Shown here piece by piece: positions 10,450-50,289 of a DNA stretch of 64,000 bases. Position 1 is the first letter of the stretch. Each line of letters opens with the position of its first letter. The stretch comes from Candidatus Poribacteria bacterium (lineage in GTDB: Bacteria > Poribacteria > WGA-4E > PCPOR2b). A program made the position numbers and the translations under genes. The stretch is from the NCBI GenBank assembly GCA_028819845.1, contig JAPPKS010000032.1, positions 124,001-188,000 of the forward strand, given 5' to 3'. Under the pieces are notes generated by a model. It searched no databases. It was not told the origin of the DNA and worked only from the letters and a program-made list of their open reading frames with translations.

Positions 10450-10546
10450 GAAATTTAACCACCACATTGCCCGTGTAGGGGTATTTCTTATTTTGGATTA
10501 TAGATTGCCAATTTCATCTGTATGGGGCTTGCTGGTATAGATAATC

Positions 10547-32570: not shown

Positions 32571-32623
32571 TTTCTCCTCCTTTAGTTCGTTGAAAACGTG
32601 AATCTGAGACGCTGCAACTAGAT

Positions 32624-32653
32624 ATTGTAACAATGTTTGCTTTGATTTCTCAA
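32624..32653 (-). promoter_or_regulatory. Sigma-70-like promoter of the cytochrome bc operon
   Basis: On the minus strand: TTGAGA (32653-32648), an 18-base spacer, TACAAT (32629-32624). The first gene starts 54 bp downstream. Confidence 0.55.
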
Positions 32654-32724: not shown

Positions 32725-35031
32725 CTATTTCTGGATGAGCATTTTACGGGTCGCCGAAAATTCACTTGCGTTGATGTTGTATAAGTATATTCCGCTGCTT
32801 ACTGACTCGCCCGATTCATTGCGTCCGTCCCAATAGACCGCACGCGAGGGAGAGCGATACTCGCCCGCGGGCAGTAAACCCGGCGATAGGATGCGAATAA
32901 ATCGACCCGTTGAGGTGTAGATACGAATCGTGACGTTGCTCTCATTTGCTAGGCGGAATGGAATCCACGTTTCAGGGTTGAATGGGTTGGGGTAGTTTTG
33001 CAGCAGCCGGTTCTGTTTTACTTGACCAAAGGTGACGAATTCCCTGCCGCGCGGCTCAACAGCGACAGGTTCGGAAGGAAGTAGTGCCGTTCCGTCCCAA
33101 ATTTGGATTTTACCTGTCTTGTCCCACGAAAGTAGAACGGTTCCGTCTCGACTCAATGCGAAATAGTTTGGTATAGGTGGATGGTCGATAGGTGTGTTTG
33201 TTTGCCAATCCCAAATCTGGAGGCGATTGTTGCGGCTGCCGAAGAGATAGCGTCCGTCCGAAATAAAGTGTGTCGGTGAGTCTACCTCCAACGTCGCGCG
33301 AAGACGCGGGTAGTTTGGGTTAAGTTCCCAGATTTGTACGAATTTCCTGATATCGGGTCGAACTCCTTCGCGAATAGGTATTGCAAGCAAAACTGAACCA
33401 TCCCTTAGCGTGTGGAAGGAAAGTCCCGAACGGGGATTCTGCTCCTCCTCCAACTCCCAAGCAAATTGAAACGTGAAGGCATTGCCATCGTGTTTCCATA
33501 ACAGAATGCGTCGCCTCAGTGTTGCTGTCAGGTACTGGTCATTTTCGCTGAATGTGATGTTATAAACTGGTGGGTACGATGTCAGATTGGGCGAATCCTC
33601 CGACATGGCAGTTTGGTTGTGTTCCTGTTCCTCGACGTTTAACAGTAGAATGTTACCTTGTCCATAGCCATTCGCAGCAACCCACTTCCCCGACGAACTG
33701 TAGGCGATATCAGAATGCCCAGAAGTATACCAGAGTTGAGTTTCAACTTCACCAGTCTGGAGGCTGTGTATCTGGATCCATGGGTCGCGCCCGACTGCGA
33801 GTTTCTGCCCGTCCGACGAGATTGCGAATCTTCGGAAAAGCCCGCCTTCGGCAGAAACCATGCGGCGCAATTCCCCCGAAGGTAGGTTCCATATCTTGAT
33901 ATAAAAGCGGGATGCCGAGACGAAGGTTTTTCCGTCGGGGCTCAATGCGGGGATTCCCGCGACAAAATCCGCCCACACGTTGCCCCGTTGCATGGTTTCA
34001 ATGTCCCATAATACGACCGCGTCCCGATAATGCAATAGCATGGTGTCCTCGTCCGGGGACAGTGTTATGGAATTTAACTCGCGAAACTCATCGCTAAACT
34101 CACCTATTTGCTGTCCCGACTCGACATTCCATATGCGTACCATGTCGTCCCAACCTTTCCGCGTTCCGTCGGCGTCCGAAGAGGTGAGACCGCTAGTTGA
34201 CGTCGCCACGTACAAGCGTTGGCTGTCTGGACTGAAAGCCAATCCTGATACACTGCCAATGCCGCTCTTTTCTCGCCACACGCGTGCTTGGGCAGCCACA
34301 CTCCATAGATTGACGTAATTTGAATACCTTGTGAATGTCGCGGCGAACCTTCCGTCCGGACTAATGGCCACATCTTCAACCCATCCCTCGTGCCCTTCAA
34401 GCTTTCCTACTAGGCGTCGATTCTCGACATTCCATATTTCGACATGTGAACGTTGCGAGACAGCCATGAGATGGCGGCCATCCGGTGTAAAAACCAGGAC
34501 GTTACCCGGTGGAAATGACGAACAGGTGTTTCGGTCTAATCGCAGCCATGGGTTGCGCTCACCTACCATTCCGCCAATTGACTTGCCAGTTTGCCAGTTC
34601 CAGAGGTGAATTTCACCGCCGAAAGCGGTTGCAAACAGTACCGCTGTAGGGCTGAATGCCGCTGCATCAATGCGGCCTTCTATCTGCCATTGGTTTATCA
34701 GCGCACGTTTCTTGACACTCCAAATCTCTACTACAGTCGTTGTTCGATCAGCGTGACAGTCCAATATCGCTAGATGATCAGAAGTTGGGCTAAAAACGAC
34801 TTCACGGATGCGCGTACGTTCGCCGAATTCGTCAAGGACAGCACCAGTATTTGGATGAACGACTTGAATGTGCGACTGGCTAACACGTAGGATTGTCCCA
34901 TCGGAGTGGAAAGCGTGCCGCAGTGGATACGGGTGCCCGATAGTACCGACTGGTTCGATAGCCAAGACTACCACAGGAACACGTACAAAACTGAATAAAA
35001 CGCTAATGATCATCTTCATGTTGTGTCTCAT
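32725..35031 (-). CDS. Secreted beta-propeller protein with T9SS/FlgD-like C-terminal module
   Basis: A 768-residue protein with a signal peptide; the start may be the second ATG four codons in. It has divergent WD40/quinoprotein-type repeats (AAFSPTAVLFATAFGGEIHLWNWQ is one long unit; FTPDGRHLMAVSQRSHVEIWN and SPDGRFAATFTRYSNYVNLWS are others). They make one or two propellers, followed by a link and a roughly 90-residue C-terminal module. The module begins QNYPNPFNPETWIPFRL and ends in AVYWDGRNESGESVSSGIYLY plus a short basic tail (ATRKMLIQK). This resembles type IX sorting domains mixed with the FlgD-Ig fold. It is the last gene of the propeller island. Binding function is inferred. Confidence 0.85.
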   Translation of the reverse strand: MRHNMKMIISVLFSFVRVPVVVLAIEPVGTIGHPYPLRHAFHSDGTILRVSQSHIQVVHPNTGAVLDEFGERTRIREVVFSPTSDHLAILDCHADRTTTVVEIWSVKKRALINQWQIEGRIDAAAFSPTAVLFATAFGGEIHLWNWQTGKSIGGMVGERNPWLRLDRNTCSSFPPGNVLVFTPDGRHLMAVSQRSHVEIWNVENRRLVGKLEGHEGWVEDVAISPDGRFAATFTRYSNYVNLWSVAAQARVWREKSGIGSVSGLAFSPDSQRLYVATSTSGLTSSDADGTRKGWDDMVRIWNVESGQQIGEFSDEFRELNSITLSPDEDTMLLHYRDAVVLWDIETMQRGNVWADFVAGIPALSPDGKTFVSASRFYIKIWNLPSGELRRMVSAEGGLFRRFAISSDGQKLAVGRDPWIQIHSLQTGEVETQLWYTSGHSDIAYSSSGKWVAANGYGQGNILLLNVEEQEHNQTAMSEDSPNLTSYPPVYNITFSENDQYLTATLRRRILLWKHDGNAFTFQFAWELEEEQNPRSGLSFHTLRDGSVLLAIPIREGVRPDIRKFVQIWELNPNYPRLRATLEVDSPTHFISDGRYLFGSRNNRLQIWDWQTNTPIDHPPIPNYFALSRDGTVLLSWDKTGKIQIWDGTALLPSEPVAVEPRGREFVTFGQVKQNRLLQNYPNPFNPETWIPFRLANESNVTIRIYTSTGRFIRILSPGLLPAGEYRSPSRAVYWDGRNESGESVSSGIYLYNINASEFSATRKMLIQK

Positions 35032-35238
35032 GTTTTACGGCGCGATGCGGAGTGACCTCGGGTCGGTGGTGGAAGCATCGCACGGCTCCATATTTTCCAC
35101 AAGGAAGCCGATTTCACGACGCCTTAAATTTTTTACCGGACTTTGGTTTGAATTTCGAAAGGCGTGTATTACAAAGGTTGTTTCCTTAGCAAGGGGATGT
35201 ATTAGGGGTGCGTCCCATATCACGCAAGCGAAGTCACG

Positions 35239-36294
35239 CTATTCTTGGTGCCTCAGTTCTTTTTGAATCCTATACTGGGAAATTGCATTATTTTTTTTGA
35301 CTCCACCCCAGTTGTCGATATGCTTGCCAGTGGGGGACACTGAGAGCGCAAAGGCAGGGTCAAACCAAGATGCGCTACGGAAACCGTCTGACGCTGGGTG
35401 ATTTGTGAGGTTCCGCTGATTGTTCCCATTTGCATCCATTACATAAATCTCACCACTTTGACCGTCCCTTTCCGAATAAAATATGATGTTTTGGCTGTCA
35501 GGCGACCACGCCGGATAGCGGTCATGCTCCGGATGCTTTGTCAGGCGGCGTCGATTCGTCCCATCAGCGTTCATCACAAAGATGTCGGTTTTTTGGTTCT
35601 CTCGTGAAGATTCAAAGGCAATCGTCTTCCCATCAGGAGACCACGCGGGGTAACGGTTTCCTGAATTGACTGGTGTCAGCCGGTGTTGATTGTGTCCATC
35701 GCTATCCATCACGAAGATACTAACCCCGTCTCGAGTCGAGGTAAATGCAATCTGTCTGCCGTCAGGCGACCATGTGGGGGAATGATCTCCGAAAGGGTTA
35801 ATTGTCAGGACTCTTGGAATTCCACCTTCGGCATCTATGACGGCAATCTCAGACTGCTTGCCATCGCCAAACCCTTCAAAACCAAATTCTGCAAAGTCTA
35901 TCCCCTCTACCTCCCAAGTAAAGGCAATCTGTTTTCCATCAGGAGACCACGCGGGATTTGCGCTTTGATTCATTGATGCCAGGTAACGCTGATTTTTTCC
36001 ATCGGCGCCCATCAAGTAGAGTCCGGTGCCCTCTGGTCGTGAAGAATAAAAGGCGATTCGCCGGCCGTCGGGCGACCATGTTGGCATCATGTCACTACTG
36101 CGATGGTTGGTTAGATTGTGTGGATTTTTCCCATCGGCGTCCATCACGTAGATTTCATTGTTGCCACCTCTAAATGAGGTGAAGGCAATTTTAGCGGTTC
36201 TGGGCGCCTGTCCCCACCCATCAGCGGGTAATATTGCACTGCCAAAAATGACTAAGAAAATAATAACGATGTTAAACCGACGCGCTCGGGTCAT
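35239..36294 (-). CDS. TolB-like PD40 beta-propeller protein
   Basis: A 351-residue protein with a signal peptide (to about ADGWGQ). It has six PD40 units of about 45 residues with the pattern P.WSPDGRQIAF.S.RDG...I.VMDADG.N...LT.H, as in the C-terminal propeller of TolB. TolB's N-terminal domain is absent, so it is not TolB itself. Such proteins bind partner peptides or act as surface receptors. It lies 33 bp after the TonB-dependent receptor at 36328 and probably shares its transcript. Confidence 0.88.
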   Translation of the reverse strand: MTRARRFNIVIIFLVIFGSAILPADGWGQAPRTAKIAFTSFRGGNNEIYVMDADGKNPHNLTNHRSSDMMPTWSPDGRRIAFYSSRPEGTGLYLMGADGKNQRYLASMNQSANPAWSPDGKQIAFTWEVEGIDFAEFGFEGFGDGKQSEIAVIDAEGGIPRVLTINPFGDHSPTWSPDGRQIAFTSTRDGVSIFVMDSDGHNQHRLTPVNSGNRYPAWSPDGKTIAFESSRENQKTDIFVMNADGTNRRRLTKHPEHDRYPAWSPDSQNIIFYSERDGQSGEIYVMDANGNNQRNLTNHPASDGFRSASWFDPAFALSVSPTGKHIDNWGGVKKNNAISQYRIQKELRHQE

Positions 36295-36327
36295 CTCTCT
36301 GTTTAGTTGGTAATCGAAAAGGACGTA

Positions 36328-38379
36328 TTAAAACGCGACCATAACGCCCAATGTCGGCAGAATCGGCAGCATCGGCTCTTCATCAATATCACATCTGATG
36401 AGCGCTCCCGTTTGCTCGTCTCGCACCTCACTGAACGCATACTGGTCAAGGTTAGTTCGATTGTAAAGATTTAAAATTTGGAAATACCAGGTGAGTTCCC
36501 ACCGGCTGTATGGATTCCGATCCGTGAACCGAAAATCGAGACTGTGATAGGGCGGCATCCGCTCTGAATGCGTCGCCCCGAACTGCCGGTCGCAGGCGAT
36601 GTCTCCTCCCGGCAGAGAGACCAGCGTATGCGTCAACGCCGTTCTCGGTTCGCCGGAATGGAAACGCCACGTCAAATAGAGATGCCGCCCGCGCGAAAGT
36701 TGATGACTGCTGCTGACAGCGATAGAATGCCGCCGGTCAGACTGACGAAAAAACGTCTCGCCGCCTGCACTTTCTTTGGCGACCGTGTATGCATAGCCGA
36801 TGCTCCACGTGAACCGGTTTGAAACCGCATGCGTGACAAATATATCTACCCCTTTTGCCGCCCCGGATTCCGGAGGCGTGAAAATCTGTGCCTGCCGGCC
36901 AAATTCCCTGAGCCGACCCGCAAGATTGTCCAATGTTTTTGAATACGACTCCAAACGGAACAGGAAATTATCGCTTGGACGGTATTCGCCGCCGAGAATG
37001 TAATGAACCGCTTGTTCAGCGCGCCCGACAGTCTGAACACCGTCCTCGACAGGGATATTCATCAAACGGATGGGTTGGTGATAAAACCCCCACGCCCCGC
37101 GCAACACTAGCTTCTCTGTTGGGCGAACGGCAAGCGCCGCGCGGGGTCCTAATTCGTAGTTTTGGATACCCGCAGCGCGATAGTCTTGGAATATATACCG
37201 CCCGCCAAAGTTGAACGCGAGTTTCGGGTGGAGCTGCCACTCATCTTGAATGTATGCCTTCAGTTCGCCGCCGCTGCCTTCCAGGTCCGCAACTACCCTT
37301 GCATAATTATTGACACCGGGTTGCCGCTCGCGGACATCGTACTCGTATTGCGCTGTCATCCTGCGCCATTCAATTCCGCTGCGAAACAGGTGTTTGTCCA
37401 GAAATCCGGCTGTAAATTCGGTTTTGGCTCCGAAGAAACCGAACGAGCGTACATCGAAGTCCTCGGCTCCGGTGCGCCGGTCTTGCGCTGCGTTTCCCCC
37501 AAAAACAAACACATCTGACCAGTTCGCATTTCCAAAGCGATGCCGCCACCGCGTCCAAACGGTCAAGTTGTCATATCTCGAATCTAAGTTATTTTCGATG
37601 TCTTCTTGCCGAATCCGGTTCTTGTCCCAACCGTATAGACCGTTTAGAGTGATTGTGTCCGTCTGTGTCGGCGAATAGGTAAGTTTGGCGTAGGCATCAG
37701 CATATTGCGGCTTGTAGTCCTCATCAAGATCGATTAGCGCAAGAATCAGGTCAACGTAGCCGCGGCGTGCAGATAGGCGCCACGACCCTTTCTCTGATAA
37801 GGGGCCTTCCACCATCGCGGTTGTATTGATAAGGTCAACTCCGAAATTCGCGGAAACCTTGTCGATTTTCTTGGACTTTGTTGTCATGTCGAACACGCCA
37901 GACATTTTGTCCCCGTATTCCACGGGGAAGCCGCCCATCAACAGTTCGACGCGTTGAATTAAATCTAGCCCAACGAGTGAAACTGCGCCGCCAAAGTCTT
38001 GCAGGTGGTACGGATTGAAGAGCTCCATGCCGTCCAACCTCACCAGAACGTCGTCCTTTTCGCCGCCTCGCACGCTGAATCGCGCACTGTAATCGCTTGC
38101 AACGACCCCCGGGAAAACATGTGCAGCCCGCATCACGTCGTTATCAACCAGCGGAAAGCGTTCAATGAGCCGTTTTGAGAGGGATATCCTTGACGGCGTT
38201 TCGTCATCAATCGCAAACCGGCCGGGTGTCACGACAATCTCGTCGAGTTCAACAGGTTTCGCATCGGTCAGTTCTGAATCGGGCTGATCGCCTAGGGCAT
38301 TTCCGAGAAAAACCGGCGGCAATGGATTGCTGATGCAGATTACGGCAAGCGCGAACAGCAAAAAGTATCGCTTTAACAT
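36328..38379 (-). CDS. TonB-dependent outer-membrane receptor
   Basis: A 683-residue protein with a signal peptide, then LDEIVVTPGRF as a TonB-box-like start. The plug domain follows (VFPGVVASDYSARFSVRGG, VRLDGMELFNPYHLQDFGG, VELLMGGFPVEYGDKMSGV), then a beta-barrel that ends in aromatic residues (TLGVMVAF). Such receptors import siderophores, vitamin B12 or oligosaccharides using energy from TonB. It follows the WD40 gene at 38434 by 54 bp on the same strand. Its substrate cannot be read from the sequence. Confidence 0.92.
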   Translation of the reverse strand: MLKRYFLLFALAVICISNPLPPVFLGNALGDQPDSELTDAKPVELDEIVVTPGRFAIDDETPSRISLSKRLIERFPLVDNDVMRAAHVFPGVVASDYSARFSVRGGEKDDVLVRLDGMELFNPYHLQDFGGAVSLVGLDLIQRVELLMGGFPVEYGDKMSGVFDMTTKSKKIDKVSANFGVDLINTTAMVEGPLSEKGSWRLSARRGYVDLILALIDLDEDYKPQYADAYAKLTYSPTQTDTITLNGLYGWDKNRIRQEDIENNLDSRYDNLTVWTRWRHRFGNANWSDVFVFGGNAAQDRRTGAEDFDVRSFGFFGAKTEFTAGFLDKHLFRSGIEWRRMTAQYEYDVRERQPGVNNYARVVADLEGSGGELKAYIQDEWQLHPKLAFNFGGRYIFQDYRAAGIQNYELGPRAALAVRPTEKLVLRGAWGFYHQPIRLMNIPVEDGVQTVGRAEQAVHYILGGEYRPSDNFLFRLESYSKTLDNLAGRLREFGRQAQIFTPPESGAAKGVDIFVTHAVSNRFTWSIGYAYTVAKESAGGETFFRQSDRRHSIAVSSSHQLSRGRHLYLTWRFHSGEPRTALTHTLVSLPGGDIACDRQFGATHSERMPPYHSLDFRFTDRNPYSRWELTWYFQILNLYNRTNLDQYAFSEVRDEQTGALIRCDIDEEPMLPILPTLGVMVAF

Positions 38380-38433
38380 AACGGCATAAAGGTCAATTGA
38401 TGTTTATTGGCGGCGGCGATTTGAGGAGCAATC

Positions 38434-40653
38434 CTATTTCACAACAGTCACGCGTCTCGTGGTCCGAAAATCACCGGTCTCCAGCGTGTAGAAGTAGGTA
38501 CCGCTGCCGACCGCCTCGCCCATATTATTGCGGCCGTCCCAATAGGCCGCACTCTCTCGTGAGAGATAACTCCCCTCGAGTTTCGTGCCTAAATCTAACG
38601 TTTGTACCAGCTGTCCCGCAACATCATAAATATGGATTTGCACATTAGCCGATTCTGCAAGTTGGTAGGGAATCCATGTTTCAGGGTTGAGTGGATTCGG
38701 GAAATTTGCCAAGAGCGCTGTCCGTCTAACTTCGCCCAAAAGTATCGGTTTGGGAAAGATTAGTTGTCGGACGTTCCAGATTCGCGTTTGGTCGGAAACA
38801 TAATCCCGGGCTACCACGACTGAACCATCCCGATTTGCAGCAAAGTAGCGTGGGATGTCAGGTGCCGTGACGGGTGTTTTGATTGCCCAATCCCAAATCT
38901 GAAGTCTTCCCCCGTGATTAACAAACAGGTAATCCCTTTGCAGATGGAGAGACTCAGCACCGCCGTGCACAAAATGGATTGGAGCGGAGGCATTGAAACG
39001 CATTGATTGCTTCGGGGCGGTGTCTCCAAGTTCCCACACCTGTAACTCATCCCCATTTCCGATAACAACTAGCGCAGGATTCGTCGGTTTCGGCTCAAAT
39101 TCGATGTCGTCGATCTGAGATGCCGGAATTTGCCACGAATAGCGATGGACATATCTGTCCATGTTATTTTCCCACAGATGCACCTCGTTGTCCCAATCCG
39201 ATACTGCCAGATAGCGGTCGTCCGGGCTGAAAACGATATGACGTTCTGAGATGTAAGCTTGTTCCTTTGGCAACAGTTCTTCCCGTTTATCGGGGTTGTG
39301 AAGATTGTAAATGACTACACTGCTATGCTGGCCTACGGCAAGCCGCCTCCCGTCGTTACTGAAAACGTAGGGTGTCGATCCAACTTCATTCGGGACTTTT
39401 AAAAGAACTTTACCGCTGCGTGTCTCTCGAATTTCTATCCACGGGTCCCGATCTACCGCAAAGGTTTGTCCGTGCGGCGACATGGAAATATGACGGAAAA
39501 AATAATCGTCGGGGGAGATTATTTCCTGGAGCTTTTGCGAACGGAGATTCCAGATTGTGAGGGCAGGCCCCGACAGACTAACAAGGTAATGCCCGTCAGG
39601 GGTAACAGCCCCCCATCTAGGGAAAACGTAATCGGTTTGGAGTGCGAGACGGCGGCGTTGTTGGATGTCCCATAGCGAGACAAATCCATTGTAATACCAG
39701 AGCACCGCATGTGTCTCATCGGGCGAAATAGTAAGCCCCTTAATGCCAAGTGTCTCGTCGCCCAATTCCTTGAGTTGTTCACCGGTTTCGATATCCCAGA
39801 TGCTTACCCGATTGGGTTGCCTTGGGTAACCGCCTGTGCCGGATGCAATATAAATCCTCTTGCTATCGGGACTGATTCGCATTTTTTGCACATTACCTGT
39901 GACGTGCAAAACAAGCTGTTGCGTCCCTAGCTTCGCGTCCCAAAACTGAATCCGATCATTGGTGTCAGCCATAACAATCCAACGACCATCAGGACTGTAT
40001 ATCGCACGTATTGCCCTAAAAGATCTCGTGTGGCTCCACAAGCGTTGATGAGAAGCGATATCCCAAACGTCGACGATCGTCTCCCAATGGTCGTCGCCAC
40101 CGGGAAGCTCACGGGAGATATAAGAATTGATGGAGAGTAGTTGCCGCCCATCTGGGTTGAACGCTAACCGGACAAAGCTGGGCTGATCCGTCCATTTAAT
40201 CTCGCCGAGGGATTCGCCCGTTTCGACACGCCAGAGGCGAATTATTCCCTCATCGTGTCCAGCAAAAACCATTAGATTTGGGCTCAATGCTGTGTGATAA
40301 AGGGTCAGCGGGATCGTGCGTTGAAGGATTTTTCGTTGTGATGCCAACTCCCATATTTCAATCGCAGTTTGCAATGCGGAGCGCTTTGTCCGTACAATTG
40401 CTAACCTCAAACTGTCTCTGCTGACCGTGACATTCCCCATAGACACTGTTCTGTCAGCAAATCGTTCTATAGTTTCCCCAGTATTTGGGTCGGCTAACTC
40501 AATACGGTTAGAAAGGACGCGCAGAATTCTCCCATCTGGCAGGAAGGTAATATTCCGGAGTTCACCCTTTCCCAATGAACCGATGGGCCGAAGTTCGGCA
40601 AAAACAACTGAAGTTAACGTCAGACAGAAAATTAACGTGGAGACTGTTTTCAT
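38434..40653 (-). CDS. Secreted beta-propeller protein with T9SS/FlgD-like C-terminal module
   Basis: I start at the ATG followed by KTVSTLIFCLTLTSVVFAE, a signal peptide; the frame is open 19 codons more. The 739-residue product has divergent WD40-like units (FSPDDRYLAVSDWDNEVHLWE, ISPDETHAVLWYYNGFVSLWD, TPDGHYLVSLSGPALTIWN) and ends with the sorting-like module: TALLANFPNPLNPETWIPYQL, a beta strand pair, AAYWDGRNNMGEAVGSGTYFY and a basic tail. In the module's signature NPLNPETW replaces NPFNPETW. Its blades are less regular than those of the next three genes, so it is more like the protein at 32725. Confidence 0.87.
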   Translation of the reverse strand: MKTVSTLIFCLTLTSVVFAELRPIGSLGKGELRNITFLPDGRILRVLSNRIELADPNTGETIERFADRTVSMGNVTVSRDSLRLAIVRTKRSALQTAIEIWELASQRKILQRTIPLTLYHTALSPNLMVFAGHDEGIIRLWRVETGESLGEIKWTDQPSFVRLAFNPDGRQLLSINSYISRELPGGDDHWETIVDVWDIASHQRLWSHTRSFRAIRAIYSPDGRWIVMADTNDRIQFWDAKLGTQQLVLHVTGNVQKMRISPDSKRIYIASGTGGYPRQPNRVSIWDIETGEQLKELGDETLGIKGLTISPDETHAVLWYYNGFVSLWDIQQRRRLALQTDYVFPRWGAVTPDGHYLVSLSGPALTIWNLRSQKLQEIISPDDYFFRHISMSPHGQTFAVDRDPWIEIRETRSGKVLLKVPNEVGSTPYVFSNDGRRLAVGQHSSVVIYNLHNPDKREELLPKEQAYISERHIVFSPDDRYLAVSDWDNEVHLWENNMDRYVHRYSWQIPASQIDDIEFEPKPTNPALVVIGNGDELQVWELGDTAPKQSMRFNASAPIHFVHGGAESLHLQRDYLFVNHGGRLQIWDWAIKTPVTAPDIPRYFAANRDGSVVVARDYVSDQTRIWNVRQLIFPKPILLGEVRRTALLANFPNPLNPETWIPYQLAESANVQIHIYDVAGQLVQTLDLGTKLEGSYLSRESAAYWDGRNNMGEAVGSGTYFYTLETGDFRTTRRVTVVK

Positions 40654-40719
40654 TATAGTTCTGTAAACTGCGTCATTAATAACGTAATCCGCAGAATAGT
40701 CAGTGAACACGTCGTTCTC

Positions 40720-41034
40720 CTACTTGACGATTACCATATGCCGTAACTCGGTGTAATCATCTGCCCGGAGTTGATAGTAATAGGCGCCGCTGGTGACGTG
40801 TTCTCCGTTTTGATTGCGGCCGTCCCAATACGAGGCGTTCTCTTTGTCTTGGTAAACCCCCGATCTTTGATGCCCAACGTCGAGGGTGCGGACGATATGA
40901 CCGCTCTGGTCATAGATGATTAAGGTGACGTAAGCGTCTTGTTCCAACTGATAAGGTATCCAGGTTTCGGGGTTGAACGGATTCGGGAAATTCTGTAACA
41001 GCGCCGTGCGTTTGATGTTTCCGAGTGTCGTGGT
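40720..41034 (-). repeat. Direct repeat of C-terminal-module DNA, copy 1
   Basis: About 315 bp encoding the NPFNPETW module, closely matched by 43060-43374 and 45438-45750. The three copies share the gene end (TTGACNATNANCAT) and the stretch TTTGATGTTTCC at the other end. Confidence 0.75.
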
Positions 41035-42951
41035 AAGTTTTGCCAACGGTTTCACACCCACCCCAACGCCGCTAGAAGCGGGAAGTTCCCACAGCAACAC
41101 GGTACCGTCCCGATTTCCATCGCCAGTCCAACTTCCGCCGCTAGCGAGTGTTTTGCCGTCGGGACTGAACGCTACACTAAACACCCAATCATAGACCGTT
41201 ACCGTATGTCCGGTGAGTGTCCTCAAGTGTTCGCCAGTATCAGTGTCCCAGAGCCGAATAGTATTGTCCGTACTTCCACTAGCGAGTGTGTTTCCATCTG
41301 GACTGAATGCGACGCTTTCGACCGGAAGTGCATGCCCTGTAAGTGTTCGTCGAAGATTTCCTGTGTTTGAGTCCCACAGACGGATAGTATCGTCGCCGCT
41401 TCCACTAGCGATTGTGTTTCCGTCGGGGCTAAAGGCGACGCAAAAGACCCAATGCGTGTGTCCGGTGAGCGTGCGTCGCGGTCTTCCTGTAACTGCGTTC
41501 CAAAGACGGATGGTGCCATCGCCGCTTCCACTAGCGATTGTTTTTCCATCTGGACTATACGCGACGCTGTAGACCCAATCTGTATGCCCGATGAGCGTAC
41601 GTTGATGTGCTCCCGAATCGGTGTCCCACAGACGGATGGTATCGTCCGCGCTCCCACTAGCGAGTGTTTTGCCATTGGGGCTGAATACGATGCTGTTGAC
41701 AAAACCCGTATGCCCATCAAGTGTACGCAGGTGTTTTCCTGTATCTGCCTCCCACAGACGGATGGTATTGTCCCAACTCCCACTAGCGATTGTGTTACCA
41801 TCGGGACTGAAGGCTACGCTATAGACCCAATCCGAATGTCCGGTGAGTGTACGCTGATAATCCCGTGTATCTGCGTTCCAAAGACGGATGGTGTTATCCC
41901 CGCTCCCACTAGCGAGCGTTTTGCCATCGGGACTGAACGCAATGCTATTGACCGTGCCCGGTCTAGTGAGCGTCTGCCGGTGTTTTCCCGAATCGGTGTC
42001 CCACAGACGGATTGTGCCGTCTGTGCTCGCGCTAGCGATTGTGTTTCCATCGGGACTAAACGCCAGGCTCGTCACTGAACCTGTGTGCCCGGTGAACGTA
42101 AACCGGCGATTACCCGTATCAGCGTCCCGCAGATAGATGATGCCGACGCCGTCCCCACTAGCGATTGTGTTTCCATCGGGACTGAAAGCGACGCTTTCGA
42201 CTCCGGCCGTATGCCCGGTGAGAATTCGCCGCTGATTCCCGGTATTGACGTCCCACAAGCGGATGATGGAGCTTCCCCCGCTGGCGAGTGTGTTTCCATC
42301 GCGATTGAATGCAACGATTCCGACTCCAGATTTATTCTGGGTAATCGTTCTCAGGTGTTTTCCAGTATCCGAGTTCCAGAAACGGACGGTGCCGTCACTA
42401 CTGCCGCTAGCTAGTGTTTTTCCGTCAGGACTGAACGCGATGCTATTGACCGAGCCAGTGTGCCCGCTTAGCGTAAGTAGTTGATTTCCTGTGTCGGCAT
42501 CCCACAGACTGATATTCTTGTCCTCACCTCCGCTTGTGATTGTGCGGCCATCGGGACTGAATACAACGCTCCTGACCAATTTCGTATTCCCGTTGAGCGA
42601 TAGTACGTGTTTACCGGAAGCAGCGTTCCACAAACGGATAGTGTTCTCACCCCCACTCGCAATGGTGTGCCCATTGGGACTGAATGCCACGGTAGTCACA
42701 GGCGTTTGCCCGGTGAGCAGGGCGAGCTCCTGATGGGTCGCGGTATCATATAGCCAAATACCCATACTGCTTGCCACCGCGAGTCGAGTGCCGTCGGGCG
42801 AATATTGGATTTCACTTATCCAGCCTTTACCGATACGTGCAATTGCCCCTTCAGGCGGCCCCCATCGTGGAAAATCTCGGGCGAAGCTATGCGGAATCGA
42901 TAGATTTGAAACGAACAATAAACTAAGCATCAAGATTACCGCTAGCTTCAT
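40720..42951 (-). CDS. Secreted WD40 double beta-propeller with T9SS/FlgD-like C-terminal module
   Basis: A 743-residue protein with a signal peptide (to about HSFARDF), 14 WD units by my count and a C-terminal module (about residues 645-743). The units are nearly identical to one another: TVRFWNSDTGKH, TIRLWDTDSGKH, TIRLWDSNTGN and so on, each after AFSPDGNTIASGS. Fourteen units fit two seven-bladed propellers. The module starts TALLQNFPNPFNPETWIPYQL and includes YWDGRNQNGEHVTSGAYYY. The DNA shows an internal period of about 126 bp: CACTAGCGATTGTGTTTCC recurs with few changes near 41404, 41787, 42030 and 42157. Ribosome site GGAGGGATATTGCA. A recognition role at the cell surface is inference. 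Confidence 0.92.
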   Translation of the reverse strand: MKLAVILMLSLLFVSNLSIPHSFARDFPRWGPPEGAIARIGKGWISEIQYSPDGTRLAVASSMGIWLYDTATHQELALLTGQTPVTTVAFSPNGHTIASGGENTIRLWNAASGKHVLSLNGNTKLVRSVVFSPDGRTITSGGEDKNISLWDADTGNQLLTLSGHTGSVNSIAFSPDGKTLASGSSDGTVRFWNSDTGKHLRTITQNKSGVGIVAFNRDGNTLASGGSSIIRLWDVNTGNQRRILTGHTAGVESVAFSPDGNTIASGDGVGIIYLRDADTGNRRFTFTGHTGSVTSLAFSPDGNTIASASTDGTIRLWDTDSGKHRQTLTRPGTVNSIAFSPDGKTLASGSGDNTIRLWNADTRDYQRTLTGHSDWVYSVAFSPDGNTIASGSWDNTIRLWEADTGKHLRTLDGHTGFVNSIVFSPNGKTLASGSADDTIRLWDTDSGAHQRTLIGHTDWVYSVAYSPDGKTIASGSGDGTIRLWNAVTGRPRRTLTGHTHWVFCVAFSPDGNTIASGSGDDTIRLWDSNTGNLRRTLTGHALPVESVAFSPDGNTLASGSTDNTIRLWDTDTGEHLRTLTGHTVTVYDWVFSVAFSPDGKTLASGGSWTGDGNRDGTVLLWELPASSGVGVGVKPLAKLTTTLGNIKRTALLQNFPNPFNPETWIPYQLEQDAYVTLIIYDQSGHIVRTLDVGHQRSGVYQDKENASYWDGRNQNGEHVTSGAYYYQLRADDYTELRHMVIVK

Positions 42952-43059
42952 TGCAATATCCCTCCATGTTTGTGTGCCGCATCTGATTCATACCGCACGC
43001 AGTAACCATAGAGTCCAGTTTTTTTAAAACGCTTGGTTGCTTGCTTCAATTGTGTGGAG

Positions 43060-43374
43060 TTACTTGACAATCAACATTCGCCGTAACGCGCTGTAATCAC
43101 CCGTCCTGAGTTGACAAAAATACGCGCCACTGGTGACGGGTTCTCCGTTTTGGTTGCATCCATCCCAATACGCCGCTTCTGATTTGTCTAGGTAGGCTCC
43201 CGAACTTTGATGCCCTATGTCAAGTGTGCGGACGATATGGCCGCTTTGGTTGTAGATAATCAAGGTTACCAGTGAATTCTTTTCCAACTGATACGGTATC
43301 CAGGTTTCGGGGTTGAACGGATTCGGGTAATTTTGCAGCAACGCCGTCCGTTTGATGTTTCCCAGGGTCGTGGT
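43060..43374 (-). repeat. Direct repeat of C-terminal-module DNA, copy 2
   Basis: Second copy of the 3' gene-end repeat (see 40720 and 45438). Differences are mostly single bases; GCATCC replaces GCGGCC in the WDGRN codons, giving WDGCN. Confidence 0.75.
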
Positions 43375-45336
43375 GAGCTGCGGCAAATTCTCAACCGCAA
43401 CGTCATCGGAGGTGCTGAGAGTAAAATCCCAAAGGAGTATTGTGCCGTCCAAACCGGCGCTAGCCATCGTACGTCCATTCGGACTAAACGCCACGCTTCG
43501 CACCCCAATCGCATGGCCTTTGAGTGTTTGGTGGAGTTTCCCCGATTTGATGTTCCACAGTCGAATGGTGTCGTCCCAACTCCCTCCGCTGGCGAGGATG
43601 AGTCCATCGGGACTGAACGCAATGCTTTCGACGTCAAATCTATGTCCGGTGAGGGTATGTAGGAGTTCGCCTGAATCGGTATCCCAGAGCAGGACGGTGC
43701 CATCCCAATTACCGGCGTTTGCGAGCGTGCTTCCATCGGCACTTAGGGCAACGCTCGCTCCCAAACCGGTAGTTCCAGTGAACGTACGCAGGAGTTTTCC
43801 CGCATTGGCGTCCCACATACGGATGGTATTGTCTAATCCCGCACAACTTGCGAGCGTGTGTCCGTCGGAGCTGAAGGCAACGCTCGTGACCGAATCGGTA
43901 TGTCCGATGAGCGATTGCCGGAGTTTTCCGGTATCGGCGTCCCAAAGACGGACGACGTTGTCCCAACTCCCTCCAGTAGCAATTGTGCGTCCATTGGGGC
44001 TGAACGCAATAGTATTGACCCAACCTTCATGCTCCCTGAGTGTTCGCAGAAGTTCTCCGGTGTTGGTGTCCCATAATTGGATACTGTTCCAGCCAACACC
44101 AGCGAGAGTGCGCCCATCGGGACTAAACGAAACGTCATCAATTCCATTCTTGTACTCGTTAATTGATAGCCTGAGTTTTCCGGTATCGGCGTTCCACAGC
44201 CGGATAGTTGCGTTGCCGCCCCCACTTCCTGCGCGGCGGTTTGGACTGTGCTCAACGATATAGCTCGAACTCACACTTGCGAGCGTTTGTCCATCGGGAC
44301 TGAATTCAACGGTGTCGACCCAACCCGTATGCCCGGGGATTGATCGCAGGAATTCTCCCGATTCAATGTCCCATAACCGGATAGTACCGTCTCCACTACC
44401 ACTTGCGAGCGTACGTTCATCAGGATTGAACACGACGCTGACTACTCCAGACGTGTGTCCGGTGAGTGTTCGTCGGTGTTCACCCGTATGTGCGTCCCAC
44501 AGTTGGATTGTATTGTCCCAACTAGTACTTGCGATTCTGTCACCATCGGGACTAAACGCGGCGCTCGTGACCCGCCCCGAATGTCCGATGAGCGTGCTCC
44601 GAAGTTGTCCCGTATCGGTGTTCCACAGCCGGATGCCGTCTCCATCACTGATCCCGCTCGCACTTGCAATGGTACGCCCATTTGGACTGAACACGACGCT
44701 TACTACGCCAGACGTGTGTCCGGTGAGTGTTCGCCGGTGTTCGCCCGTAAATGAGTCCCACTGACGGATGGAATTGTCGCTGCTCCCGCTTACGAGCGAG
44801 TTGCCATCAGGACTAAACGCAACGCTGCGAATTTCGTCCGAATGCCCGGTGAGTGTGTGAAGGAGTTTTCCCGTGAGCGCATCCCACAGCCGGACGGTGT
44901 CGTCACTGCTCCCACTTGCGAGTGTGCGTCCGTCAGGGCTGAACGCAACTGTCCTGACCCAACTCGTATGTCCGATGAGTATTCGCCGTTGTTCACCCGT
45001 ATGTGCGTCCCACAGTCGGATGATGTTGTCACTGCTTCCGCCCGCGATGGTGCGCCCATCCGGACTATACGCAACGCTTTCGACATAAATATGCGGGGCG
45101 AGCAGTGTAACCTCTTGATGGGTCGCCGTATCATAGAGCCAAATACCGATGCTGCTCGCTACCGCAAGTCGAGTGCCGTCGGGCGAATACTGTATATCGC
45201 TTATCCTACCCTTTCCAAGGCGAGCTATTGCGCCTTCGGGCAGGCTCCATTGCGGAGATTTTTGAGCGAGGCTATGCGGCAGACAAAGAGCGGAAACGCA
45301 CAGTAAGCTAATTTTGAAAATCAACGCTATCTTCAT
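43060..45336 (-). CDS. Secreted WD40 double beta-propeller with T9SS/FlgD-like C-terminal module
   Basis: I start at the ATG at 45336, where KIALIFKISLLCVSALCLPH gives a signal peptide. The frame is open for 70 more codons upstream, but those overlap the end of the previous gene and match its module in another frame, so they are not coding here. The 758-residue protein has 14 WD units by my count, such as TVRLWDALTGKLLHTLTGHS and TIRLWDIESGEFLRSIPGHT, and the module starting TALLQNYPNPFNPETWIPYQL. One unit carries an insert (about SSYIVEHSPNRRAGSGGGNA), which breaks the strict period. The gap to the neighbouring genes is about 100 bp each. Confidence 0.92.
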   Translation of the reverse strand: MKIALIFKISLLCVSALCLPHSLAQKSPQWSLPEGAIARLGKGRISDIQYSPDGTRLAVASSIGIWLYDTATHQEVTLLAPHIYVESVAYSPDGRTIAGGSSDNIIRLWDAHTGEQRRILIGHTSWVRTVAFSPDGRTLASGSSDDTVRLWDALTGKLLHTLTGHSDEIRSVAFSPDGNSLVSGSSDNSIRQWDSFTGEHRRTLTGHTSGVVSVVFSPNGRTIASASGISDGDGIRLWNTDTGQLRSTLIGHSGRVTSAAFSPDGDRIASTSWDNTIQLWDAHTGEHRRTLTGHTSGVVSVVFNPDERTLASGSGDGTIRLWDIESGEFLRSIPGHTGWVDTVEFSPDGQTLASVSSSYIVEHSPNRRAGSGGGNATIRLWNADTGKLRLSINEYKNGIDDVSFSPDGRTLAGVGWNSIQLWDTNTGELLRTLREHEGWVNTIAFSPNGRTIATGGSWDNVVRLWDADTGKLRQSLIGHTDSVTSVAFSSDGHTLASCAGLDNTIRMWDANAGKLLRTFTGTTGLGASVALSADGSTLANAGNWDGTVLLWDTDSGELLHTLTGHRFDVESIAFSPDGLILASGGSWDDTIRLWNIKSGKLHQTLKGHAIGVRSVAFSPNGRTMASAGLDGTILLWDFTLSTSDDVAVENLPQLTTTLGNIKRTALLQNYPNPFNPETWIPYQLEKNSLVTLIIYNQSGHIVRTLDIGHQSSGAYLDKSEAAYWDGCNQNGEPVTSGAYFCQLRTGDYSALRRMLIVK

Positions 45337-45437
45337 AACAGTTGCCCTGGATGGTTGAGTATCGTAAATCACGTCGTCCTCAGTAATTGCAGAAACGAGG
45401 TTATAAAATAACGCGGAATCGCTGCAACGATTTGCCG

Positions 45438-45750
45438 CTACTTGACAATCACCATCCGCCGTAATGCGGTGTAATCGCCCGCACGGAGTTGGTAGTAATA
45501 CGTGCCGCTGGTGACGGGTTCTCCGTTTTGGTTGCGGCCGTCCCAATACGCCGCTTCTGATTTGTCTCGGTAGACTCCCGGTTTTTGATGTCCAATGTCA
45601 AGGATGCGGACGACATTACCGCTCTGGTCATAGATGGTTAAGGTGACGTAAGCGTCTTGTTCCAACTGATATGGCATCCAGGTTTCAGGGTTGAACGGAT
45701 TTGGATAATTCTGCAGCAGCGCCGTGCGTTTGATGTTTCCCAACGTCGTG
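45438..45750 (-). repeat. Direct repeat of C-terminal-module DNA, copy 3
   Basis: Third copy of the 3' gene-end repeat (see 40720 and 43060). Confidence 0.75.
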
Positions 45751-47684
45751 ATGCGGCTTTCCAAAGGTTCTACCGAAATCCCAACACCGGTTGATGGGGA
45801 AATTTCCCAAAGCAGCACGGTGCCGTCCGAACTTGCACTCGCGAGAGTGTCACCATCATGGTTGAAAGCGACACTACTGACCGACTTCGCATGCCCGGCG
45901 AGTGTTCGCAGGTGGTTGCCTGTGGCGATGTCCCACAGGTGAATCTCTTCCGAGCTTCCGCCCGCGAGCGTATTGCCATTCGGGCTGAAAGCGAGGCTAC
46001 TGGCCGAACTCGTATGCCCGCTGAGTATTTGCAGTAGTTCGCCCGATGCTGTGTCCCACAGAATAATCTCACTCCAGCTTCCACTAGCGAGCATCGCACC
46101 GTCAGGACTGAAAGCGACGTTACCGACGGCACCCGTATGTCCTTCGAGCGTTTTTAATTGCTTGCCCGTGGCGGCGTCCCACAGGCGGATGAGGGTGTCC
46201 CTACCCGCACTGGCGACCGTGCGCCCATTTGGGTGGAATGCGACGGTGTTGACAGAACCCGCATGCTCGTCGAACGTGAACAGGTGGTTTCCTGTGGCAG
46301 CGTCCCAAAGCCGCGCCCGACTGTCATAACCTCCGCTAACGATTCTGTCACCATCTGGGCTGAAGGCTACGCTATGGACACTCAAGCTATGTCCGCTGAG
46401 TGTTCGTAGGAGTTCCCCATCCGCAATGTCTAACAGCCGTACATTACTGTCATCACTCCCGGTAGCGATCGTTGTGCCACCTGGGCTGAAAGCGACGCTA
46501 CTGACACTACGGCTGTTTCCAGTGAGTGTACGCAGGTGTTGGCGAGACGCAATGTCCCACAGCCGTACGGTCCCGGTATCGCTCCCGCCAGCGAGCGTCG
46601 CGCCGTCAGGGGCGAGCGCGATGCTCCTGAGCGAACTCGTATGCCCGTTGAGCGTTCCGAGGTGGTTGCCCGAGGTAACGTCCCACATCCGGATGGCGCC
46701 GTTTCGGCTGTGACTGGTGATAGTGCGCCCATCAGGATTGAACGCAACGCTATTGACCCAACTCGTATGTCCGTTGAGCGTTCGGATGAGTTCGCCCGAA
46801 GCAGTGTCCCACAGATGAATTTCTTCCCAAATCCCACTGGCAAGCGTTGTGCCGTCCGGGCTGAATGCGACGCCATTGACGCCACTTCTTTCCGGCTCGA
46901 ACGTCCGGAGAAGTTCGCCTGTAGCAATGTCCCACAACCGAATGTCGAAAAAGTCCGCGCTGGCAAGCATTGCACCATCGGGGCTGAATGCAATGCTATC
47001 GACACTACCAAAATGCCCGATGAGGGTTTGAAGGATTTCGCCCGTGTCAGCGTTCCACATCCGGACGGTAGCATCCCAACCCCCGCTGGCGACAGTGCGT
47101 CCATCTGGACTAAACGCAACGATTTCAACAATACTAGAATGCCCGGTGAGCGTGTGTAGAAGTTCGCCCGTATCGGCGTCCCAAAGACGGATGGTATCTC
47201 CCCAATCCTCGTCACCGGTATCGCCCCAACTCGCACTACTTACTATAGCGCGCCCATCGGGACTGAACCCAACGCTTTCGACCGAATCCGATACGGTAAC
47301 GGTTCGCATGGGTTCGCCAGTATCGGCGTGCCAGAATCGGATTGAGTCTCCATTTGCGCTTAAAATGGTACGCCCATCCGGACTGAACGCAGCGCTTTCG
47401 GCGGACATATTCCCCGCGAGCAGCGCGACTTCTTGATGGGTCGCCGTATCGTAGAGCCAAATACCGATACCGCTAGCCACCGCAAGCCGTGTACCGTCGG
47501 GCGAATACTGTATTTCATTTATCTCACCCTTGCCGAGGCGGGCTTTAGCGCCATCGGGGAGACTCCATTGCGGAGAACCTTGGGCGGAGCTGTTTGATGC
47601 AAATGTGACCGTTACCAATACGAGAAGTATTAATGTTACAAATTGTGCCATTTTCATGAATTGGTTTTGCTTGTCAGTTTGCAT
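45438..47684 (-). CDS. Secreted WD40 double beta-propeller with T9SS/FlgD-like C-terminal module
   Basis: A 748-residue protein. I keep the first ATG because AGAGGAGAGAGACA before it is a strong ribosome site; an ATG nine codons further gives a shorter signal peptide. It has 14 WD units by my count, among them TIRLWDADTGELLHTLTGHS, TVRMWNADTGEILQTLIGHF and LIRLWDAATGKQLKTLEGHT, and the module TALLQNYPNPFNPETWMPYQL. The first unit is the shared IWLYDTATHQEVALL. It is the first of four propeller genes in a row and lies next to the TonB-dependent receptor at 47977. Two inverted repeats (47732 and 47882) lie between that receptor and this gene. Confidence 0.92.
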   Translation of the reverse strand: MQTDKQNQFMKMAQFVTLILLVLVTVTFASNSSAQGSPQWSLPDGAKARLGKGEINEIQYSPDGTRLAVASGIGIWLYDTATHQEVALLAGNMSAESAAFSPDGRTILSANGDSIRFWHADTGEPMRTVTVSDSVESVGFSPDGRAIVSSASWGDTGDEDWGDTIRLWDADTGELLHTLTGHSSIVEIVAFSPDGRTVASGGWDATVRMWNADTGEILQTLIGHFGSVDSIAFSPDGAMLASADFFDIRLWDIATGELLRTFEPERSGVNGVAFSPDGTTLASGIWEEIHLWDTASGELIRTLNGHTSWVNSVAFNPDGRTITSHSRNGAIRMWDVTSGNHLGTLNGHTSSLRSIALAPDGATLAGGSDTGTVRLWDIASRQHLRTLTGNSRSVSSVAFSPGGTTIATGSDDSNVRLLDIADGELLRTLSGHSLSVHSVAFSPDGDRIVSGGYDSRARLWDAATGNHLFTFDEHAGSVNTVAFHPNGRTVASAGRDTLIRLWDAATGKQLKTLEGHTGAVGNVAFSPDGAMLASGSWSEIILWDTASGELLQILSGHTSSASSLAFSPNGNTLAGGSSEEIHLWDIATGNHLRTLAGHAKSVSSVAFNHDGDTLASASSDGTVLLWEISPSTGVGISVEPLESRITTLGNIKRTALLQNYPNPFNPETWMPYQLEQDAYVTLTIYDQSGNVVRILDIGHQKPGVYRDKSEAAYWDGRNQNGEPVTSGTYYYQLRAGDYTALRRMVIVK

Positions 47685-47731
47685 TGTCTCTCTCCTCTTT
47701 AATCATCACGTGAATACTCACTTCTGAGAAT

Positions 47732-47750
47732 TCTAGTTAACGAAACTAGA
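47732..47750. promoter_or_regulatory. Inverted repeat upstream of the WD40 array
   Basis: TCTAGTT and AACTAGA, seven-base arms around five bases, 48 bp before the start of the first WD40 gene. The position fits an operator. No regulator is known. Confidence 0.35.
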
Positions 47751-47881
47751 TTAGTGTCTTCGAGGTGATTAAATGGACGGGCAAAATGCGTGCCAACGGA
47801 TTCGCCACTTCAATTTCGGCGCGGTATGCGCGTTAAGTCCAGCCGTACGAACAGTATGTGTTTTTTTAGTGTGTCGGCCGT

Positions 47882-47928
47882 TGCACAAAACGGTGCAATT
47901 CAGATGTACGCTTGCTCGGTTTTGTGCA
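47882..47928. promoter_or_regulatory. Long-spaced inverted repeat between receptor and WD40 array
   Basis: TGCACAAAAC and GTTTTGTGCA, perfect ten-base arms 27 bases apart, between the end of the TonB-dependent receptor gene and the first WD40 gene. It could be a stem-loop in a transcript running through, or a paired protein-binding site. Confidence 0.4.
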
Positions 47929-47976
47929 CGTTTCGATATCTCCGGTTCATTTGGACCTCCAGCAAATTCCCTTCGA

Positions 47977-50289
47977 TTAGAATCGATTGTCTAGACTGAC
48001 AATCACATTCAACCCCGGTGCGTTGATGCCGGAGCCGTGCTCGCGATACCGCTCATCCAACAGGTTTTCAAGTGCAACCGTCATTCGATTGTAATCGGTC
48101 AGGTGATAACCGCCTCGCAGATTAAGCGTGACCCAACTCGCCGAACCTTGCCCAACCGCTGCACCGTGTGAATCAAACTCGACCTCACCGGTATCACGGG
48201 TAGTGCCTGGGATTCGCGGGTCTCGTATGTCACTGCGATTCAATCGCCGTTGCTCGGTTGCGCCGCGAACGAAAAATTCTCCCCAGTACCGCTTAGCAGA
48301 CGGGTGCCAGCGGATACCGAACATTCCATTGAGCGGCGGTTCACGGCGAATTCGTCCTTCCCACGGATTATCGGGGTTAGGCGCGGCACCGTTAAGCACC
48401 AACACCTTCCCGCGCGTGTAGGCAGCGTTTCCGTAGAACGACCAACTGTTTTGAATAGGGAGCATTCCCGCAAACTCGATGCCTTGAATCTGTACTTCAT
48501 CAACATTGTCGAACACATAGACATCAATGCCCGGATTGTTTCGCTGGATTTCCGTAATCAGGCTTGGCAGCGCCCTTTCGGCGTAAGCGTCTTCGACTGC
48601 AACACGGGTGACCAAATCGTTAATGCGACTGTGAAAAAGCGTGAGCGAACCGATAAACTTCTGAAAGCGTGCTTTAAGCCCGCCCTCTGCTGTCCACCCG
48701 GTCTCAGATTCGAGGTCAGGAGAAGGCGAATCTATACCTTCGTTGGTGACCTCAACGGCGGTGGTATCATTCAGCGAAGGTGCGCGGAACGATGTCGCGA
48801 AATTGCCGACGAGGTTCAGTCCGTCCGTGACGCTTACCACGACGCCCGCACTGCCGGTCAAAGCGTTTCCGGATTCGTTAAAGTCACTAAATTGATCGGA
48901 ACGCACCGAAAGGTCGGCTTGTGTATTATAGTGGGTGAATCGCCCGCCGAGCGTGAGTTCGAGACGGTCGTGCAGCTCAATTTCATCCTGAACGTAGAGG
49001 TTCGCATCCCAAAATTGCGAGCCGTCAATAAACCTACCTTTTGTGTCGTCTACCGTTTCAGCGCCGGTCGTGACGTCGGTCGTGACGGTTTGGCTGGAAA
49101 GGGTATCGAAGTAAAATTCGACGCCTGTGACAATTCGTTGGTTAGGCAGCGATGCATTGGTTGCCTGTGCACTGAGACCAAACGTGTTGACGTTGTCAAA
49201 CCGCTCTCGCCTTTCCGTGGCATCGCGCAAGAGTTCGTTCCGCCCTTCTTTCTGCCGATGAAAAGAGGCGGTGAATCGAAACTGGTCTATCGCGGAGTTA
49301 GCTGGTTTGTTCAAGTAAGTCGCATAGAGAAGATCTCGGTGTTGCGGTTCGAAAAAGAACTCGTCGAACTCGCGCGGTGCAATCTTGTCGTAGCGCGGGG
49401 TTTTCGGCTGACGCCAGAGTTGGTAGGCGAGGTTTACCGCACTGGTATCGGTGAGTTGGTAAGCGAGTTTGGTGTCGCCGTCGTATGCGCTCCAATCCAG
49501 CGGCGCTTCAGAGTCAATCAGCCAACGCTCCGGCACATCTTTCGGCGGAGCTTCAAAGATTTCAACGCCCGGCGGTTTTTCGCTGACAATTTTAAATTTA
49601 CGGTTCTTGTAGTGCAGGTCGTAACCGCTGCCCGGATTGATGTCGCCGAACCGGCGGGCGGACGCACCGAACGAAAACCCGAGCCGCCTGCGGTTGCCCA
49701 TTACCTCAAAGCGACCTAGCCGTTCTGAAGTTCCGGAAGCGAATCGACCGAAAGTGCGGAACTGGATGTTCCATTTATCCGTTGCATTGTCCAGAATCAC
49801 ATCTTTAGTGAACATGCTGATGACACCACCCATGGCGCCGCTGCCGTATAGCATTGAACCCGCCCCGCGCAACACTTCAATTCGGTCGAGGCTAGCCGGG
49901 CTTATTGTCCCCAAATACTGATTTGGACCGGAGCGAAAGGTAGAGTTGTTGAGTCGGACGCCATCTATAGAAAGAAAAGCTTGATATCCGGTGAGGCCGC
50001 GCAGCATCGGCGAACCTTGCCCGGCAGTCGTCTGCTGCGCCCAGACCCCAACGGTTTCGCTTAGAATTCGGGGTGTGATGTCGGCGTTAATACGTTCAAT
50101 TTGCGTTCGGTCAATGACGGAAATCGAGTTCGGTGTTCGGAAAGTATCTTTTGGGACGCGGGTAATGACGGTGATTTCCTCCAACTCAATGGGGTTCACT
50201 TTCGCCTCGTCCACCGTAGAAAATGCGGGATTGATACTGATTAGAAAAAAACTCAATCCTACCCATAGTTGTTTTCGTCCAATTGTCAT
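47977..50289 (-). CDS. TonB-dependent outer-membrane receptor
   Basis: A 770-residue protein with a signal peptide (VGLSFFLISINPAFS), a TonB-box-like ELEEITVITRV, a plug with QGSPMLRGLTGYQAFLSIDGV and IEVLRGAGSMLYGSGAMGGVI, and a 22-strand-type barrel ending in VIVSLDNRF with the C-terminal phenylalanine. The plug resembles that of heme/hemoglobin and vitamin B12-type receptors more than SusC; the substrate is unknown. It lies 292 bp upstream of the WD40 array on the same strand. The start follows AAGGAGAGTAACTG. Confidence 0.93.
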   Translation of the reverse strand: MTIGRKQLWVGLSFFLISINPAFSTVDEAKVNPIELEEITVITRVPKDTFRTPNSISVIDRTQIERINADITPRILSETVGVWAQQTTAGQGSPMLRGLTGYQAFLSIDGVRLNNSTFRSGPNQYLGTISPASLDRIEVLRGAGSMLYGSGAMGGVISMFTKDVILDNATDKWNIQFRTFGRFASGTSERLGRFEVMGNRRRLGFSFGASARRFGDINPGSGYDLHYKNRKFKIVSEKPPGVEIFEAPPKDVPERWLIDSEAPLDWSAYDGDTKLAYQLTDTSAVNLAYQLWRQPKTPRYDKIAPREFDEFFFEPQHRDLLYATYLNKPANSAIDQFRFTASFHRQKEGRNELLRDATERRERFDNVNTFGLSAQATNASLPNQRIVTGVEFYFDTLSSQTVTTDVTTGAETVDDTKGRFIDGSQFWDANLYVQDEIELHDRLELTLGGRFTHYNTQADLSVRSDQFSDFNESGNALTGSAGVVVSVTDGLNLVGNFATSFRAPSLNDTTAVEVTNEGIDSPSPDLESETGWTAEGGLKARFQKFIGSLTLFHSRINDLVTRVAVEDAYAERALPSLITEIQRNNPGIDVYVFDNVDEVQIQGIEFAGMLPIQNSWSFYGNAAYTRGKVLVLNGAAPNPDNPWEGRIRREPPLNGMFGIRWHPSAKRYWGEFFVRGATEQRRLNRSDIRDPRIPGTTRDTGEVEFDSHGAAVGQGSASWVTLNLRGGYHLTDYNRMTVALENLLDERYREHGSGINAPGLNVIVSLDNRF

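Follow-up and report, generated by a model that had tools for sequence, protein, structure and literature searches.

A minus-strand run of secreted-type propellers and two TonB-dependent receptors in a poribacterial genome: probably a local gathering of known kinds of genes

In Poribacteria, proteins in which WD40 repeats are joined to TIGR04183, the T9SS type A sorting domain, were reported to be abundant, and no structural Por genes were found (Kamke et al., 2014; PMC3909097). The text of that study nowhere contains the word TonB and does not treat the neighbourhood of receptors. The WRAP protein from Nostoc punctiforme (PDB 2ymu) has 14 near-identical blades joined to a STAND ATPase, and highly repetitive propellers are recognized by a median blade identity above 60% (PMC9218822). 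In the WD40 repeats of the Podospora proteins HET-D and HET-E, codons 7, 9, 25 and 27 are under positive selection (PMC1805685). On the receptor side, the nearest described systems are the heme/hemoglobin receptors and the SusC/SusD glycan uptake loci, in which an outer-membrane receptor adjoins secreted proteins.

The window analyzed here is a stretch of 64,000 nucleotides on a 303 kb contig from the 4.6 Mb draft genome (35 contigs) of a sponge-symbiont-type bacterium (Poribacteria). It contains a run of eight minus-strand genes (32725-50289) that encode, in transcript order, R1, the propellers a, b, c and d, R2, a PD40 propeller and propeller e. R1 (47977..50289, 770 aa; PF00593, 142 bits; PF07715, 73.4 bits) and R2 (36328..38379, 683 aa; PF00593, 50.6 bits; PF07715, 33.1 bits) are TonB-dependent receptors, with both the plug and the receptor barrel domain scoring over the curated Pfam cut-offs. 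Propellers a (45438..47684; PF00400, 385 bits), b (43060..45336; PF00400, 449 bits) and c (40720..42951; Pfam WD40) contain WD40 repeats and a C-terminal NPFNPETW module, which is also present in d (38434..40653) and e (32725..35031), two divergent WD40-type propellers with weaker matches to Pfam WD40. The PD40 (TolB-like) propeller (35239..36294, 351 aa; PF07676, 192 bits) is without the module. The open reading frames listed for b (from 45546) and d begin too far upstream; translation of b likely starts at an ATG near 45336 and that of d at an ATG near 40653. All eight genes of the original prediction were recovered in the order and at the places that it had given, with Pfam and NCBIfam families that agree with its descriptions.

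The NPFNPETW module corresponds to TIGR04183, for which the cut-off is 23 bits. Propellers a (24.0 bits), b (28.9 bits), d (32.4 bits) and e (28.7 bits) score over this cut-off, and c, which scores 21.7 bits on its own, exceeds it once the neighbours in frame are included, so that the module is carried by five of the six propellers as had been predicted. The same applies to the signal peptides, in that a signal-peptide-like N-terminus was recognized by eye and hydropathy in all eight proteins. WD40 repeats fill a-e between the signal peptide and the module, and no NACHT or STAND domain as in HET-D/HET-E was found among their listed Pfam matches. The pairing of WD40 repeats with a Por/T9SS C-terminal domain is the same as in the proteins described by Kamke et al. 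(2014). The run resembles the SusC/SusD loci in the adjacency of receptors and secreted-type proteins; no SusD-family match or lipobox was identified in the eight proteins, and no glycosidase domain was found in the run by Pfam.

The intergenic gaps are, in transcript order, 292 (R1-a), 101, 108, 66, 54, 33 and 207 bp (PD40-e). Five of the seven thus agree with the predicted range of 30-110 bp, and the first and the last exceed it. Genes a through PD40, separated by 33-108 bp, may be co-transcribed. Scans for promoters and terminators gave signals no higher than in shuffles and, with gaps of 292 and 207 bp, a single long co-transcript is uncertain. No Rfam family was found in the window, and hence there is no riboswitch clue to the substrate of the receptors.

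We consider it probable that the run is a lineage-specific mosaic of two separately evolving units and represents a local gathering of known kinds of genes. One unit would be an old pair of receptors, R1 and R2, acting as energized importers in the outer membrane, and the other a block of secreted propellers taken from a family that is spread through the genome and multiplies in tandem. A local gathering is more likely than a new machine because related genomes keep receptors and propellers apart. If so, the eight-gene layout itself matters little, and the distinction to be made is between a conserved part, the near-universal receptor pair, and a variable part, the multiplying family of secreted propellers.

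The propellers were compared to WRAP at the level of individual blades. Propeller c contains 14 WD40-type repeats with a spacing of 40-46 aa, and its best solved relative is 2ymu (E 5e-168), which has the same number of blades. The AlphaFold2 model of c has a pLDDT of 68, and its best Foldseek match, again 2ymu, has a TM-score of 0.33-0.43; ring closure is therefore not claimed. The mean identity of blades over matched units is 0.66 in c, 0.57 in b and 0.49 in a, as compared to the median above 60% that is used for WRAP-like propellers. Unlike in WRAP, with its near-identical blades and its STAND ATPase, the blades are thus 49-66% alike and old at synonymous sites, and they are joined to a signal peptide and a sorting tail. 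The synonymous difference between blades within proteins is 0.54, as compared to 0.70 expected at random; the few or no synonymous differences that mark recent amplification were not observed between the blades, and the synonymous sites of the framework are far diverged. A PADLOC match to HEAT-ARM_XIII in a-c was rejected as a repeat-driven cross-match to WD40 sequences.

The framework is almost invariant across 83 canonical blades. Variability is highest at positions on either side of the conserved V and D, including the two pairs that match codons 7, 9, 25 and 27 of HET-D/HET-E. This pattern would be expected if the propellers formed a diversified recognition repertoire, in which the top-face residues of the blades differ by analogy to the fungal WD40 allorecognition receptors. 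We regard such a repertoire as unlikely, since nearly the same positions are the most variable in a control set of WD40 proteins without the module, so that the pattern may reflect an exposed face only, and since the far diverged synonymous sites give no sign of recent concerted evolution. The variability of the blades is better taken as the mark of an exposed, varied face than of a rapidly evolving repertoire. A recognition repertoire would concern the role of the propellers and is compatible with the mosaic of two units.

The propellers belong to a large family in the source genome, which contains 46 copies of the module and at least about 30 WD40 genes among the matches listed. Four WD40 genes are clustered on C10 and three on C35, in both cases without a nearby receptor, and PD40 genes are abundant as well. 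Phylogenetic analysis of the module region placed a, b and c inside a clade of 12 paralogs from several contigs of their own genome (support 98/97), within which the local group is less well supported (80/83). This topology fits a genome-wide spread followed by tandem duplication. Propeller d pairs with a gene in G009 (100/99) that adjoins three WD40 genes and no receptor; its closest relative (71%) is located in a cluster of module genes in G006, away from the R1-R2 pair of that genome. The close relatives of e (about 40-58%) occupy a separate conserved locus in a sister family, often as tandem copies. We suggest that the propeller block landed between R1 and R2 in the source genus and multiplied there. 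Two WD40 frames with in-frame stops elsewhere in the source genome (L258:7472-9719, on G000:C10, and G000:C8:28010-28747) point to turnover of genes within this family.

A candidate route of export for these proteins was identified in the source genome. A protein of 2188 aa similar to SprA/Sov, the outer-membrane translocon of the T9SS, is encoded at G000:C12:81438-88001 (L257:7438-14004); it matches TIGR04189 with E 5e-47, but its 159.9 bits do not reach the cut-off of 200. An SprA-like gene was present in all of the 40 Poribacteria genomes searched. In addition, at least eight genes of the PorV family score over the cut-off in the source genome (best score 232.7 bits, cut-off 90), and members of the PorV/PorQ family are located at C30:188447, C11:41801, C10:422059, C31:89577 and other sites. 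The multiplication of this family might provide several cargo shuttles. A type IX-like route and a location outside the cell are plausible for the module proteins because the sorting tail, an SprA-like translocon and PorV-family genes occur together, in contrast to the lack of structural Por genes in Kamke et al. (2014). A literature search, which was not exhaustive, gave no paper naming SprA in Poribacteria. Each propeller, composed of one or two WD40-type rings between a signal peptide and the C-terminal sorting module, would probably cross the inner membrane by Sec and the outer membrane by the T9SS-like SprA/PorV route. At the surface it would then be either retained or released, and its propeller face may bind partners there, such as proteins or glycans. 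We infer the surface location, the export route and the binding function, and also that the receptors can function without the propellers. The SprA-like translocon and the PorV-family proteins are thereby candidate exporters for the WD40 proteins, and the secretion route that was left open in 2014 is now testable.

The receptors differ in how closely they resemble described proteins. R1 matches the receptor models TIGR01785 and TIGR01786 over nearly its full length, and in the PDB it is closest to the colicin I receptor and to heme receptors. Its score against TIGR01785 is 194.1 bits, below the cut-off of 316.85 for this subfamily, and its scores against all of the nearest models, which describe heme/hemoglobin and siderophore receptors (TIGR01785, TIGR01786, TIGR01783), are under the curated cut-offs. 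R2 has weak matches only, and no solved structure was matched in the PDB to E 0.01; its predicted structure has a pLDDT of 49. Relatives were searched in 98 genomes, mostly of the same order as the source, of which 80 contained a match to R1 and 86 a match to R2, and those named genomes that contain a relative of R2 all belong to Candidatus Poribacteria. By this distribution, R1 and R2 are near-universal, old poribacterial receptor genes.

The settings of the two receptor genes were compared across other genomes (33 contexts for R1 and 32 for R2), with the source genus represented by one genome. In genus g2, a sister genus in the family of the source, the order R1-R2-PD40 was found in G008 and G001 and, with 980 bp between R1 and R2, in G006, while in G005 a protein of 447 residues without family matches sits between R1 and R2. 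No WD40 gene lies between the receptors in any of these four genomes. A genome from another family of the same class (G074; L138:8691-12614) has R2-R1 in the reversed order with a gap of 18 bp, which suggests that R1 and R2 form a pair. They are unlinked in the largest sister family, where each has its own conserved setting and neither run contains a propeller. R1 is there usually beside coaD-like and alaS-like genes, and R2 is usually followed downstream by a small gene and faces a kinase-regulator pair (names of these genes from sequence reading). A gene of 147 aa follows closely after R2 in most genomes of other families (L175, L177, L179-L187, L189, L190) and, by inspection of the sequence, also in L133, L135, L139 and L140. 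One of these followers was tested and is a rhodanese-domain protein; the receptor-rhodanese pair is conserved.

The neighbourhoods also bear on the possibility that only the PD40 protein is a true partner of R2, serving as a periplasmic or surface helper, with the WD40 genes as passengers. A PD40 gene was found in the run of R2 in four genomes, all from genus g2, where it is located 17-73 bp downstream of R2, as compared to 33 bp in the source genome. In the phylogenetic tree, the PD40 gene of the source genome groups apart from the R2-adjacent genes of g2, and they are not mutual closest relatives, so that the adjacency arose twice. This excludes the PD40 protein as an inherited partner of R2, and the doubly arisen adjacency remains the best clue that R2 and PD40 are functionally linked. 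On the other hand, no PD40 gene was found in the run of R2 in the contexts from other families, where the rhodanese-domain gene usually follows instead, and with PD40 genes so abundant in the source genome, a placement by chance is not remote. On balance, we think it improbable that the PD40 protein is the sole partner, and prefer the mosaic of a receptor pair and a propeller block.

The original prediction suggested that all eight proteins form one surface capture or recognition system. In such a system, the propellers would bind a ligand and pass it to R1 or R2 for TonB-driven import, much as the lipoprotein partners do for SusC-type receptors. The co-orientation of the eight genes with mostly short gaps, the signal-peptide-like N-termini and the sorting modules are all in line with such a system, of which the secreted nature of the propellers and a plausible location outside the cell could be retained. 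The joining of receptors and propellers into one system was not supported, and we now consider it quite unlikely. The full layout, for which the original prediction had proposed a search in other genomes, was found in no other genome searched, R1 and R2 are retained in genomes without linked propellers, and the relatives of d, e and the WD40 genes are mostly located away from receptors. The source genome has nine other receptor loci. The number of these with a WD40 gene nearby is zero for a distance of 3 kb and one for 5 kb, as compared to 0.44 and 0.53 expected; these expectations are approximate, with some contigs pooled, and adding the PD40 genes alters nothing.

The original prediction was to be abandoned if no other genome kept a receptor and a propeller together and the eight genes were expressed separately; two receptor-propeller adjacencies do exist outside the source genome. 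Besides the R2-PD40 adjacency in g2, a WD40-type propeller was found in the run of a receptor in one of the 33 R1 and 32 R2 contexts, namely in G009, of another family, where R1 is followed by an e-like gene. The background rate in the relatives is 2.1%, this being the share of ordinary genes with a propeller neighbour on the same strand within 400 bp, and two independent adjacencies outside the source genus in about 26-31 genus-by-receptor cases correspond to P ~0.10-0.14. They fit chance, yet are suggestive. A wider reading takes these two adjacencies together with the second occurrence of R2-PD40 and the WD40 block in the source genus. It holds that secreted propellers have been recruited to poribacterial receptor loci again and again. 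Exported through a minimal type IX-like system, surface propellers with variable faces would then serve a conserved TonB receptor pair as interchangeable modules for the capture of ligands. We mention this as a speculative extension with little probability, and retain the local gathering of two units as the explanation of the run. Finally, repetitive WD40 genes in a draft of 35 contigs are hard to assemble, but a misassembled or chimeric contig is very improbable, since the linkage of R1 and R2 is found independently in sister genomes, more than 40% of the amino acids differ among a, b and c, and the contig spans 303 kb.

Propellers were also observed at greater distances from receptors. In some sister-family genomes (L155, L162, L164, L165, L166, L168), one to four divergent WD40-type propellers are located near R1 on the opposite strand, within 5 kb in some genomes and, where coaD is present, mostly beyond it. 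At another receptor locus of the source genome (L103:6924-17970, on G000:C21), two module-bearing WD40 genes are located about 3.4 kb downstream, with a Fic-domain gene between. In G007, a gene upstream of R2 was first taken to encode a propeller; its product, truncated at the end of the contig, carries the module and a dockerin-like domain and was not counted. Outside the run, the window contains an additional secreted-type WD40 protein without the C-terminal module (8533-10467) and a signal-peptide protein without Pfam or NCBIfam matches upstream of Rieske-like and cytochrome b-like proteins (31596-32633). A DtxR-type iron-dependent repressor with a FeoA domain is encoded at 57259-57930, about 7 kb from R1.
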